Assembly: GCA_026398515.1 (NCBI GenBank)
Contig: JAPLSS010000776.1
Span: 1-34,395 of the forward strand
Direction: 5' to 3'
From: Candidatus Sumerlaeota bacterium
GTDB taxonomy: Bacteria > Sumerlaeota > Sumerlaeia > JAPLSS01
DNA length: 34,395 nt
Part shown: one piece after another, positions 3,648 through 33,031 of the stretch
How positions within the stretch are numbered: position 1 is the stretch's first letter
Layout: each line of letters starts with the position of its first letter
The notes under the pieces: model-generated
Database searches by the model: none
What the model was told of the DNA's origin: nothing
The model's input: the letters and a program-made list of their open reading frames with translations, nothing else
Translations under genes and position numbers: made by a program

Positions 3648-3811
3648 CGCGGTTTGTCCTTTCCTCGACGTGGCGCGCCAAGCGTGGGCTTCTCCACGTG
3701 AATCGTCAAGGGAGGAGGCGGTGGCGTGGGCTGGCAGCCCACGCCACCCTAAACGCCGATCTCCGGGAGAATCCCTTATGGGCCCTCGCGGCGCCCAGAA
3801 ACGAACGAAAT

Positions 3812-3907
3812 CGGGAGTATGGAGTCCCGCCTCTAGGCGGAATGCTCGATGGCCAGCCTCGACGCGAATTGCAGCGTTCCGCCTGAAGGCGGGACTCCAT
3901 ACTCCCG
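3812..3907. repeat. REPIN-like nested palindrome, family 1 copy A
   Basis: CGGGAGTATGGAGTCCCGCCTCTAGGCGGAAtGC ... GCgTTCCGCCTGAAGGCGGGACTCCATACTCCCG; each arm holds its own palindrome CCGCCT..AGGCGG. Confidence 0.9.
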
Positions 3908-3932
3908 GTTTTCGGAGTGATTGGAACGGAAA

Positions 3933-4128
3933 TGTGGATAAGTCGCGGTTTTCTGGGGACAATCTGTGCATAAAATCAAAGGCGTCGGGGCAAAAAGATT
4001 GCGCAAAGTGCGAGAAAAATGTTGACAAATCCGATTGCCTCGCGGGAGGGGCGTTTTGCATCGGTTTCCTCCGTTCAGAGGATGTTTTGTGGACAAAGGA
4101 GGCCTTTGCGTGGAAAAGGTGTGGACAG
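3933..4128. promoter_or_regulatory. Cluster of DnaA-box-like 9-mers (candidate DnaA-responsive regulatory region or replication origin)
   Basis: TGTGGATAA 3933 (=TTATCCACA), TGGGGACAA 3954, TGTGCATAA 3965 (=TTATGCACA), TGTTGACAA 4020, TGTGGACAA 4088, CGTGGAAAA 4109, TGTGGACAG 4120; all in one orientation, in a visibly AT-richer stretch. Confidence 0.5.
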
Positions 4129-4198
4129 AAAGCGAAGAAATGGCGTAAGTTTATAAAAATCAGTCCCATACAAGATGTGGTCGGCCAAGAGCAAAAAG

Positions 4199-4252
4199 AC
4201 CCTATATCTTGCGCTCTTTTTCTTGACAACTTGGCCTCGAATGGTTCATGAT
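4199..4252 (+). promoter_or_regulatory. Possible NrdR box plus sigma70-like promoter upstream of nrdJ
   Basis: ACCCTATATCTTGCGC 4199-4214 matches 12/16 of a remembered NrdR box consensus ACACWATATATWGTGT; TTGACA 4223-4228, 18-nt spacer, CATGAT 4247-4252. Confidence 0.35.
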
Positions 4253-4399
4253 CAGCGGCTGTGGGTGAGGGAAAGGGCGAATGTCTGCCAGCTGCTCAAA
4301 CGGCATTTCGCTCTGGCTGAGTGGTTGTTTTTCCATTCCTATCTCGCTGGTTGACTCTCTAATTCCTTATCTCGCTGGCAGCCCCAAAGGAGATGCCCA

Positions 4400-7300
4400 A
4401 TGAGTATCCGTCGCTTGTTCACTACCCCGGGCGTCGACCCGCTCGACCGCGTCGACTACGAAAAACGGTCTTCCGTGATCACGAATCCCGACGGATCGGT
4501 GGTGTTTCAGATCCACAACGCCACCGTGCCGAAGGAGTGGTCGCAGTTGGCCACCGACATCGTGGCCTCGAAGTATTTTCGCAAGGCCGGCGTGCCCACG
4601 CCCGAGGGGAGAGAGACAAGCGTCCGCCAGGTCGTCACGCGGTTGGCCCGCACGATCCGCGAAGCGGGCGAGGCGCTCGGCGGCTACTTCGCGAGCATCG
4701 AGGAGGCGAGGGCGTTCGAAGCCGAGCTGGCGCATATTCTCGTGCATCAGATCGGCGCCTTCAACTCGCCGGTCTGGTTCAACCTCGGCCTTTACCACCG
4801 CTACGGCATCGCCGGCAGCGGCGGCAATTTCCATTGGGACGCGGAGCAGGGCGAGGCCGTCGAGATTAAGAACAACTACGAGTGGCCGCAGTGCTCGGCG
4901 TGTTTCATCCAGTCGATCGACGACAGTTTGATGTCGATCTTCGAGCTGCTGAAGAACGAGGCCAAGATCTTCAAATACGGCTCGGGCACGGGCACGAATT
5001 TCTCGCTCCTGCGCGGCAAGCAGGAGCCTCTGTCCGGCGGGGGCACCTCCTCCGGGCTGATGTCGTTCCTCGAGGTCTTCGACCGCGCCGCCGGGGCCAC
5101 GAAGTCCGGCGGCACGACGCGGCGCGCGGCGAAGATGGTCTGCCTCGACGCCGATCATCCGGAGATCATGGACTTCATCACCTGGAAGATGCGCGAGGAG
5201 CAGAAGGCGCAGGCCCTGATTCGCGAAGGCTGGTCGGCGGACTTCAATGGCGAGGCGTACCACACGATCTCCGGCCAGAATTCGAACAATTCCGTGCGCC
5301 TGACCGACGAGTTCATGCATCAGATTCTGCGCAAGGGCGAATGGAACACCCGCTACCGGTTGTCGAGCGAGATCTGCGAGACGTTCGACGCCGCCGACCT
5401 GTTCGACCAGATTTGCGAAGCCGCCTGGGCGTGCGCCGATCCCGGCGTGCAGTTCGACACCACCATCAACGACTGGCACACGGGGTCGAACACCGACCGC
5501 ATCCACGCCTCGAACCCGTGCTCGGAGTTCATGTTCCTCGACGACACGGCCTGCAACCTCGCCTCCATCAACCTGGTCAAGTTTCTGCGCGCGGACGGGT
5601 CGTTCGACATCAATGCGTATCGCCACGTCATCGAAATCCTCTTTGCCGCCCAAGAGATCCTCGTCGATTTCTCGTCCTACCCGACGAAACGCATCGCCGA
5701 GAACTCGCATCGGTTCCGTCCGCTGGGGCTGGGCTATGCGAACCTGGGCGCGCTGCTGATGCAGCTGGGCATCGGCTACGACAGCCCCGAAGCGGTGGCG
5801 CTGTGCGGCGCGCTGACGGCGATCATGACCGGCCACGCCTACGCCGCCTCGGCGCGCCTGGCCGAGAAGAAGGGGGCGTTCGAAGGCTTCGCCGCCAACC
5901 GCGAGCCGATGCTGCGCGTCATCCGCAAGCACCGCGAAGCGGCCCAAGGCATTTCCGCGGAGTTTTGTCCGAGCGGCCTGCTTGAAGCGGCGCGCCAGGA
6001 GTGGGACGAGGCGCTGCGATTGGGCGAGAAGGTCGGCTATCGCAACGCGCAGACCACCGTGCTGGCGCCGACGGGGACGATCGGGCTGCTAATGGACTGC
6101 GACACCACGGGGATCGAGCCCGACTTCTCGTTGGTCAAATTCAAGAAACTCGCCGGCGGCGGCTATTTCAAGATCGTCAACGCTTCGGTTCCCAAGGCGT
6201 TGCGGCGCATGGGCTATAGCGCCGAGCAGATCGCCGCGATCATCGAATACGTCGTCGGCCGCTTGAGTTTCGACGGTTCGCCGATCATCAACCGCCAGTC
6301 GCTGGCCGAGCGCGGCATGACCGAAGGCGAAATCGCGGCGGCGCAGGCGGCGCTGGCCGGCGCGTTCGACCTGCCCTCGGCTTTCGGGCCGCACATCATC
6401 GGCCCCGAGCCGTACGTGCGCCTGGGTCTGAACCCGAAGGACTCGTCGGGCGCCGATTGCCTGGCGCGTCTCGGCTTCTCGCGGGACCAGATCGAGGAGG
6501 CGGAATTCGACGTCTGCGGGCGCATGACGGTCGAAGGCGCGCCGTCTCTGCGCGACGAGCATCTGCCCGTGTTCGATTGCGCCAACCCCTGCGGCCGCCT
6601 GGGCAAGCGCTTTATTCCGCCGATGGGCCACCTGCGCATGATGGCCGCCGCTCAGCCGTTCATCTCCGGCGCCATCTCCAAGACGGTCAACGTGCCCAAC
6701 GACACGACCGCCGAAGAGATCCGCGAGATCTACATGGAAGGCTGGCGCATGGGATTGAAGGCCATCGCCCTCTATCGCGACGGCTGCAAGGCCAGCCAGC
6801 CGCTTTCGTCGAAGGCCACGCAGGAGAGCAAGGAACCGCTCGAACTCGACGCGGAGGAGCCGGCCGGGGAAGAGCCGCGGCCGGCGCCGGAGGCCCCGGC
6901 CAAGCTCGCCGCGGCGCCCGTGGCGGCCTCGGCCTCGGGCTCCTGGCCTCACAAGGCGCATCGGCGCCGTCTGCCCCGGCGCCGCAAGGGCATGACGTTC
7001 GAGGCCAAGGTTGGCGGCCACAAGGTCTTCCTGCGCACCGGCGAATACGAAGACGGCTCGCTGGGCGAGATCTTCATCGACATGCACAAGGCCGGCGCGG
7101 CGCTGCGCTCGATGATGAACTGCTTCGCCATCAGCGTGTCCAAGGGTTTGCAATACGGCGTGCCGCTCGAGGAGTTCGTCGACACGTTCGTCTTCACCCG
7201 CTTCGAGCCGCAGGGCACGGTCGACCATCCGAACATCCGCATGGCCACCTCGGTCATCGACTACATCTTCCGGCTGCTCGGCCTGGAGTACCTCGGCCTG

Positions 7301-7723
7301 ACCGATTTCTGCCAAGTCAAGCCCGACAGCGACGCCATTCCCGAGCAGACGGTCACCGACGCGGCGTTCGACGTGATGGATGCCGAAACGCGGCGCGCCA
7401 CGGCGTCGCCCGCGCCGTCGGGTTCCAATCGCGGCAACGGCCACGGGAACGGGCATGGGACGAGTCATGGACACGCCGAAGCGGCGGTCGGCCCCGTTAG
7501 CGGCACGGATCCGGCGCTGGAAGACGGCTTGGGCGAAGCCTCGTGCTGCCAGCAGGCGCAGCCGGCGGTGAAGGCCGTCGTCAAGGACCAAACAGCCCTT
7601 TCACGCCATCTGAAGCGCATGATGGGCGACGCGCCGTTCTGCGACGTCTGCGGCAACGTCACGGTCCGCTCCGGCGCCTGCTACAAGTGCGAGAACTGCG
7701 GCAACTCGATGGGCTGCTCGTGA
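4400..7723 (+). CDS. nrdJ: Adenosylcobalamin-dependent (class II) ribonucleoside-diphosphate reductase
   Basis: 1107 aa; 'NTRYRLSSEICETFDAADLFDQICEAAWACADPGVQFDTTINDWH', 'TTAEEIREIYMEGWRMGLKAIALYRDGCKASQPL', C-terminal zinc-finger-like 'FCDVCGNVTVRSGACYKCENCGNSMGCS'; SD AAAGGAG before ATG. Confidence 0.95.
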   Translation: MSIRRLFTTPGVDPLDRVDYEKRSSVITNPDGSVVFQIHNATVPKEWSQLATDIVASKYFRKAGVPTPEGRETSVRQVVTRLARTIREAGEALGGYFASIEEARAFEAELAHILVHQIGAFNSPVWFNLGLYHRYGIAGSGGNFHWDAEQGEAVEIKNNYEWPQCSACFIQSIDDSLMSIFELLKNEAKIFKYGSGTGTNFSLLRGKQEPLSGGGTSSGLMSFLEVFDRAAGATKSGGTTRRAAKMVCLDADHPEIMDFITWKMREEQKAQALIREGWSADFNGEAYHTISGQNSNNSVRLTDEFMHQILRKGEWNTRYRLSSEICETFDAADLFDQICEAAWACADPGVQFDTTINDWHTGSNTDRIHASNPCSEFMFLDDTACNLASINLVKFLRADGSFDINAYRHVIEILFAAQEILVDFSSYPTKRIAENSHRFRPLGLGYANLGALLMQLGIGYDSPEAVALCGALTAIMTGHAYAASARLAEKKGAFEGFAANREPMLRVIRKHREAAQGISAEFCPSGLLEAARQEWDEALRLGEKVGYRNAQTTVLAPTGTIGLLMDCDTTGIEPDFSLVKFKKLAGGGYFKIVNASVPKALRRMGYSAEQIAAIIEYVVGRLSFDGSPIINRQSLAERGMTEGEIAAAQAALAGAFDLPSAFGPHIIGPEPYVRLGLNPKDSSGADCLARLGFSRDQIEEAEFDVCGRMTVEGAPSLRDEHLPVFDCANPCGRLGKRFIPPMGHLRMMAAAQPFISGAISKTVNVPNDTTAEEIREIYMEGWRMGLKAIALYRDGCKASQPLSSKATQESKEPLELDAEEPAGEEPRPAPEAPAKLAAAPVAASASGSWPHKAHRRRLPRRRKGMTFEAKVGGHKVFLRTGEYEDGSLGEIFIDMHKAGAALRSMMNCFAISVSKGLQYGVPLEEFVDTFVFTRFEPQGTVDHPNIRMATSVIDYIFRLLGLEYLGLTDFCQVKPDSDAIPEQTVTDAAFDVMDAETRRATASPAPSGSNRGNGHGNGHGTSHGHAEAAVGPVSGTDPALEDGLGEASCCQQAQPAVKAVVKDQTALSRHLKRMMGDAPFCDVCGNVTVRSGACYKCENCGNSMGCS

Positions 7724-31460: not shown

Positions 31461-32417
31461 ATGGCCCCCATCGGCCAGTGGATTGTGGTGGGCTTGAGCG
31501 CTCTGGGCGTGCTGGGCCTGAGCTACGTGGGGATGTATCTGTTCTCCCTGGCCCTTCTGGCGGCCCCGTTCATCATGGGGCTGAGCGCCTGGGCGTTCCT
31601 CGCCGCGCCGAAAAGACTGGCCCTGCCGGTTCTGGGCGGCGTATGCGCGATCGTCGCGGCGTCGGACCCGAATACCGCCTGTTTCACGGGGGCGGCGGTG
31701 TTGTGCGGGTTTCTGCTGCCGACGTTCATGGCCCATCGGCCCGGCGAGGATGGCTGCTACCACCTGATCCCGCTGGTCTTTCTGGGGATCGTGGCCGCCG
31801 CGCTGTTCGCCGCCGGACGGGCGTCCGACGACGCCGGCTGGAGGCCGTGCCTGAAAGCGTTCCAGGATTCGGTGGCGGAAGCGCGGGGAATTCAGCGCGA
31901 TATTCTGGCGCGCATGCCCCTTTCGCCCGAAGAAACGTCGCGCTGGCAGGAGGCCGACCGGCTTCTGCCGTATCGGGCGACGGGCGTGGGCGCGGCGGCC
32001 ATCGGCATCGTGTTCTACACGGCGCTGGCGTGGGCGCGCCGCTGGTTGTCGCCGGTTCCGTTGTTGAAGAACCGGTTCGCGCACTTTCGAATCAGCGAAG
32101 GCTATCTCGGCTTCCTGATCGCGGGGTTGGGGTTGATGGCCGTGTGGGTGGCGCGGCCGTGGCCGTGGCTGGGGCATGCGGCGTACGGCCTGCTGTTTTT
32201 CGCCGTGGGCGGCTTGCTCCTGGAGGCGGTGTCGCTGGCGGTCTTCTTCGCGAGCCGGGAAGAGCGGCGCGGCGCTCCGGCGCTGGCCGTCGTGGCGGCG
32301 GTCGTGGCGCTGGCGATCGCGCCGGTCCTGGCCGTGCCGGCGGCGGCGGCGGGGTTGGCCGACGTGTGGCTGGATTTTCGCCATTTGGATCGGGTTTTGG
32401 AAGGCGTTCGGGAGTAG
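31461..32417 (+). CDS. Polytopic membrane protein, DUF2232-like (between rpsR and rplI)
   Basis: Multiple TM helices; gene position typical of DUF2232/YybS-like proteins. Confidence 0.7.
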   Translation: MAPIGQWIVVGLSALGVLGLSYVGMYLFSLALLAAPFIMGLSAWAFLAAPKRLALPVLGGVCAIVAASDPNTACFTGAAVLCGFLLPTFMAHRPGEDGCYHLIPLVFLGIVAAALFAAGRASDDAGWRPCLKAFQDSVAEARGIQRDILARMPLSPEETSRWQEADRLLPYRATGVGAAAIGIVFYTALAWARRWLSPVPLLKNRFAHFRISEGYLGFLIAGLGLMAVWVARPWPWLGHAAYGLLFFAVGGLLLEAVSLAVFFASREERRGAPALAVVAAVVALAIAPVLAVPAAAAGLADVWLDFRHLDRVLEGVRE

Positions 32418-32550
32418 AAGGAGACGCGGAGACACGGAGACGGGGAGACACGGAGAAGAACCCGCGCGTTGGTTTGTCAGGATGTCCTTGTTGTCCTTTT
32501 CGTCCTTGTAGTGCCTCTCGTCCTTTGTGTCCCTTGTGTCTTTGTGCTGA
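32418..32550. repeat. Low-complexity GGAGACACGGAGAC and TTGTCCTT(T/G)TCGTCC tracts
   Basis: GGAGACGCGGAGACACGGAGACGGGGAGACACGGAGA then GTCCTTGTTGTCCTTTTCGTCCTTGTAGTGCCTCTCGTCC. Confidence 0.7.
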
Positions 32551-32578
32551 GTTTGCTCTCTATAGGAGGCGTTCGCAG

Positions 32579-33031
32579 ATGAAAGTCATCCTGTTCGAGG
32601 CGGTCGACAACCTGGGCCGCCCCGGGGACATCGTGGAAGTCAAGTCGGGCTATTATCGCAACTACCTGGGCCCTCGCGCGCTGGCCGAGGAGGCCTCGCC
32701 CTCGAATCTGAAACGGCTGGCGGCGAAGCGCCGGCAGCTGGAGGCCATGGCCGCCTCGCAATTGGAGGCCGCCAAGGCGCGCGCGTCGCAGTTGAAGGAA
32801 GCGCGGATCGAGTTCCGCCTGCGGGCCAGCGAAAAAGGGCAGTTGTTCGGCTCCATCGGCGTGGCCGACATCGAACGCGCGCTGGCGGAAAAAAAGATCG
32901 AGATCGAGCGGCGCGACATCTTGTTGAAGGCCCCGATCAAGACACTCGGCGAGCACGAAGTCGGCATTCGCCTGCACGCCAGCCTGGTGGCGCCGATCAA
33001 AGTGGTCGTGGAAAAACTCGAGGAAGCGTAG
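32579..33031 (+). CDS. rplI: 50S ribosomal protein L9
   Basis: 'MKVILFEAVDNLGRPGDIVEVKSGYYRNYLGPRALAEEAS'. Confidence 0.97.
   Translation: MKVILFEAVDNLGRPGDIVEVKSGYYRNYLGPRALAEEASPSNLKRLAAKRRQLEAMAASQLEAAKARASQLKEARIEFRLRASEKGQLFGSIGVADIERALAEKKIEIERRDILLKAPIKTLGEHEVGIRLHASLVAPIKVVVEKLEEA

Follow-up and report, generated by a model that had tools for sequence, protein, structure and literature searches.

In E. coli, ribonucleotide reductase (RNR) expression is known to be controlled by DnaA, for class I and with a class III site recognized by ChIP-seq, and such control has been suggested for B. subtilis and C. crescentus. The E. coli nrdAB operon carries three DnaA boxes, and the level and nucleotide state of DnaA switch between activation and repression, with DnaA-ATP and DnaA-ADP acting differently (PMC8203912). 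E. coli DnaA prefers pairs of boxes with 2-3 bp gaps, that is, 11-12 bp from start to start, and the DnaA site of nrdA, TTATCCACAaagTTATGCACT, is such a pair; DnaA also binds upstream of nrdD (PMC11317965). No report of DnaA control of a class II nrdJ was found in the open-access papers searched.

The locus described here resembles E. coli nrdAB in that two NrdR boxes accompany DnaA boxes, among them a tandem pair separated by 2-3 bp (PMC11317965, PMC8203912, PMC12176259). It differs in that nrdAB encodes a class Ia enzyme and has three boxes, while the enzyme here is class II and the boxes are seven; Fis, IciA, and H-NS are further regulators of nrdAB. The E. coli nrdDG operon is similar in having a ChIP-seq DnaA site upstream of an NrdR-binding RNR operon (PMC11317965), although its product is an anaerobic class III enzyme. 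The proposals for the RNR genes of B. subtilis and C. crescentus (reviewed in PMC8203912) concern hosts from other phyla, in which the link between DnaA and RNR is little studied.

The nrdJ Locus and Its NrdR Sites

The window, which is the whole stretch of 34,395 bp that was analyzed, is contig C763 of a 7.6-Mb MAG (1012 contigs, completeness 92.6%) and belongs to the class Sumerlaeia. The nrdJ gene (4400..7723, plus strand) encodes a class II adenosylcobalamin-dependent ribonucleotide reductase of 1107 aa with the Pfam domains Ribonuc_red_2_N, barrel, and TSCPD. No other RNR large subunit was detected in this 92.6% complete assembly. An intergenic region of ~0.7 kb lies between nrdJ and a minus-strand gene for an Atg22-like MFS transporter. 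A cobalamin riboswitch upstream of nrdJ was considered and rejected, as Rfam gave no noteworthy match in 3700-4420. In the nrdJ genes of L018-L028, from the related families f8 and f13, the match is interrupted around query residue 275 although the long open frame continues; this is the pattern expected of an in-frame insertion, for example an intein.

Two NrdR boxes, absent from the initial annotation, are located on the plus strand just downstream of the DnaA-box cluster: ATACAAGATGTGGTCG at 4168..4183 and ACCCTATATCTTGCGC at 4199..4214, 31 bp apart from start to start. All window positions were scored with author-chosen weights against the NrdR consensus acaCwAtATaTwGtgt. The second box has the best score and the first box the second-best, and they constitute the best pair in the 34-kb window. 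An nrdR gene is present in the genome (E 3.8e-55), and the locus shows both features of an NrdR-regulated RNR promoter, two boxes ~31-32 bp apart and the gene for their regulator. The NrdR pair beside the cluster indicates that the cluster sits in an RNR regulatory region with standard repressor sites, and the order of DnaA cluster, NrdR pair, and nrdJ suggests that the gene has a composite promoter. A putative sigma-70-like promoter, TTGACA-18-CATGAT at 4223..4252 on the plus strand, is a candidate by consensus match only (10/12).

A Phased Cluster of DnaA Boxes Upstream of nrdJ

Seven DnaA-box-like 9-mers are found at 3933-4128 (196 bp), all in one orientation, reading on the minus strand. 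Box 1 (TTATCCACA, 3933..3941) is a perfect consensus. It is followed by the DnaA-like boxes 2 (TTGTCCCCA, 3954..3962) and 3 (TTATGCACA, 3965..3973), which have an 11-bp pitch, and by the DnaA-like box 4 (TTGTCAACA, 4020..4028). Box 5 (TTGTCCACA, 4088..4096) precedes the DnaA-like boxes 6 (TTTTCCACG, 4109..4117) and 7 (CTGTCCACA, 4120..4128), again with an 11-bp pitch. Two of the seven follow TTRTCCACA strictly, and the other five differ from it by one base.

The initial annotation had described seven same-orientation 9-mers with identical 21/11 spacing in two triplets, and all of them were recovered on a single strand, with offsets of +21 and +32 in both triplets (steps of 21 and then 11). The pairs 3954/3965 and 4109/4120 have 2-bp gaps, within the 2-3 bp of a DnaA double box. 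Segment comparison showed the triplet segments to be dissimilar outside the boxes, which therefore do not derive from a recent duplication. The region was also correctly described as AT-richer than its surroundings (GC ~52% vs ~65%). The stretch AAGTTTATAAAAATCAG, which had been likened to an unwinding element, is no more than AT-rich DNA separating the DnaA cluster from the NrdR boxes.

An inverted repeat at 3812-3906 is located immediately upstream of the cluster. The genome contains 296 copies of its arm TATGGAGTCCCGCCT and none of the reversed pattern; the repeat is a dispersed REP- or MITE-like element.

The seven boxes in 196 bp compare with six in the remaining 34.2 kb of the window (0.18/kb). 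The AT-richness of the cluster region would favor a chance build-up of boxes in AT-rich intergenic DNA, but in 2000 composition shuffles of 3900-4260 the number of boxes averaged 0.27 and never exceeded 3, against the observed 7, and permuted motifs never attain the counts seen in related genomes; the probability of such a build-up is negligible. The strict motif TTRTCCACA has 30 copies in the 7.6-Mb assembly (45 for the reversed-pattern control), and the copies at 3933 and 4088 are the only pair within 200 bp. Around these 30 copies, which seeded the survey so that clusters of solely imperfect boxes would escape, the nrdJ region is the richest in boxes (seven), and contig C96 is the next (six). 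A DnaA-box cluster beyond chance is thus present upstream of this RNR gene.

Recurrence at nrdJ in Relatives and Other Phyla

The upstream regions of nrdJ from this and related genomes (26 regions) contain 3.22 boxes/kb vs 0.41/kb in their flanks, and eight tandem 11/12-bp pairs vs none in the flanks; the window itself supplies 7 of the 41 boxes and 2 of the 8 pairs. Permuted motifs yielded a mean of 5.2 and a maximum of 16 boxes against these 41, and a mean of 0.02 pairs, never reaching the observed 8. Other intergenic DNA of the class has 1.03 boxes/kb around dnaA and 1.10/kb around folC. Same-strand spacings gather at 11-12 bp (10 cases), 21-23 bp (7), and 32-35 bp (7), values that approximate whole numbers of helical turns. 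The 21/11 pattern itself, whose conservation in relatives had been suggested as a check, is not conserved and represents one case of a broader 11-bp phasing.

The boxes lie upstream of the NrdR pair in the window and in L009 and L010, and downstream of it in L018, L021, and L022; L016 has TTATCCACAaagTTGTCCCCA upstream of nrdJ. No box was found upstream of nrdJ in the close orthologs L007, L011, L013, and L017, nor over 377 bp in L008. Since several close orthologs are without a box, DnaA boxes are not universal at nrdJ: they are statistically enriched upstream of the long nrdJ and missing in several orthologs.

Among 80 further named nrdJ loci, mostly from other phyla, the density is 2.07/kb vs 0.70/kb in other intergenic DNA. 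This enrichment is ~3-fold, with a Poisson P of ~1e-16 that overstates independence because loci within a phylum are related. It is strongest in Bacteroidota (4.45 upstream of nrdJ vs 0.94/kb in other intergenic DNA) and Myxococcota-type genomes (1.60 vs 0.28/kb) and was not observed in two Gemmatimonadota among these loci. In Bacteroidota, L114, L116, and L117 all have two DnaA-like boxes upstream of nrdJ in opposite orientations, 46 bp apart.

As a negative control, 18 regions preceding another, shorter RNR gene in Sumerlaeia and other phyla were scored. NrdR pairs are frequent in them, but DnaA-like boxes stay at the background level (1.20/kb). The presence of NrdR boxes there without DnaA enrichment indicates that the DnaA association is specific to the long nrdJ lineage. 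The association does not extend to all RNR genes, nor does every long nrdJ ortholog show it.

The DnaA Protein of the Genome

The DnaA encoded in the genome has the N-terminal, AAA+, and C-terminal DNA-binding (helix-turn-helix) domains in Pfam. It contains GARDHSSVMHA, which closely resembles the usual DnaA signature. The 9-mers could instead be sites of another regulator resembling the DnaA box, as the one-base deviation of five of the seven from TTRTCCACA would allow; this is quite unlikely, given that, in several phyla, variants of TTDTCCACA recur at the spacing of the E. coli double box and that a standard DnaA DNA-binding domain is encoded in the genome.

DnaA-domain matches were also seen in long frames (mostly >1000 aa) in most relatives searched. 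The frame at L068:1170-6425 (G000:C18) is 1751 aa long and rich in TPR repeats; a DnaA AAA+ domain is located toward the C-terminus, and no Bac_DnaA_C match was found in it.

Unlikely Alternatives: Replication Origin and DnaA Titration

The initial annotation had considered a chromosomal replication origin, citing rpsF/ssb/rpsR/rplI/dnaB genes about 25 kb away. These genes were confirmed with Pfam at 29.6-34.4 kb, and the cluster, locally AT-rich as an origin might be, is denser than any other detected around TTRTCCACA sites. However, two of the checks named for an origin gave contrary results: GC skew has no inflection near 4 kb in the 34-kb window, and dnaA and dnaN are on other contigs, C481 and C447, of an assembly whose fragmentation restricts the conclusions. 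Linkage of dnaA and dnaN to oriC is common, not universal. The boxes moreover track nrdJ in many phyla, and six DnaA-like boxes in mixed orientations at L162:4880-5220 (G000:C96), in AT-rich intergenic DNA following folC, look more origin-like. An origin at the nrdJ cluster is accordingly considered highly improbable.

The C96 region would be a better, though putative, candidate for oriC; no skew sign change was found at this site. A conserved origin beside folC in the class was rejected, as only this genome and L182 have a cluster of at least three boxes there. A box cluster at dnaA was likewise rejected: no DnaA box occurs in the 6.2 kb of C481, and the dnaA boxes of relatives are merely sparse.

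The cluster could also be a datA/DARS-like site of titration or nucleotide exchange, holding or recharging DnaA, with the proximity to nrdJ being secondary. Like datA and DARS, it is a DnaA-box cluster away from the origin, the densest found around the TTRTCCACA sites of the genome. IHF/Fis sites matter for E. coli DARS2. The seven boxes over 196 bp exceed the three at E. coli nrdAB (PMC8203912), which would suit such a role. This reading is unlikely, as the boxes accompany nrdJ in different phyla and adjoin NrdR boxes; datA and DARS are not RNR promoters, and the adjoining NrdR boxes suggest transcription control here.

Predicted Control of nrdJ by DnaA and NrdR

DnaA control of RNR, the other reading in the initial annotation, gained support from the NrdR double box adjoining the cluster, from box enrichment and helical phasing at nrdJ in relatives and other phyla, and from the standard DnaA with a helix-turn-helix domain. 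The intergenic region is thus quite probably a composite nrdJ promoter, whose predicted control by DnaA and NrdR couples dNTP supply to initiation. The analysis shows the sites, their excess over chance, their spacing, their recurrence at nrdJ, and the genes for DnaA and NrdR; that the proteins bind, whether they activate or repress, and where the promoter lies are what we infer. DnaA would bind cooperatively to the 9-mers at 3933-4128, which are phased and on one strand, and would modulate nrdJ transcription depending on how much DnaA is present and on its nucleotide state. NrdR with bound ATP/dATP would repress through the double box at 4168-4214. On the model of E. coli nrdAB, though with a class II enzyme, DnaA would tune nrdJ and NrdR would repress it at high dATP, and the two together would tie dNTP supply to both initiation and dNTP feedback.

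More tentatively, with slightly less than even confidence, DnaA control may be an old, recurrent partner of RNR expression, class II RNRs of Sumerlaeota, Bacteroidota, Myxococcota, and Alphaproteobacteria included, and would operate there through a helically phased DnaA array beside NrdR. If DnaA control of class II nrdJ is confirmed, the coupling between dNTP synthesis and the replication initiator would span RNR classes and reach an uncultured phylum.

Other Features of the Window

An apparent L9 fusion at 31478-33031 was rejected, since the longer frame is spurious and the L9 gene has an ATG start of its own within it. On the minus strand, 25387-25465 matches the group II intron family RF00029 with 52 bits and is probably the end of a degraded intron.
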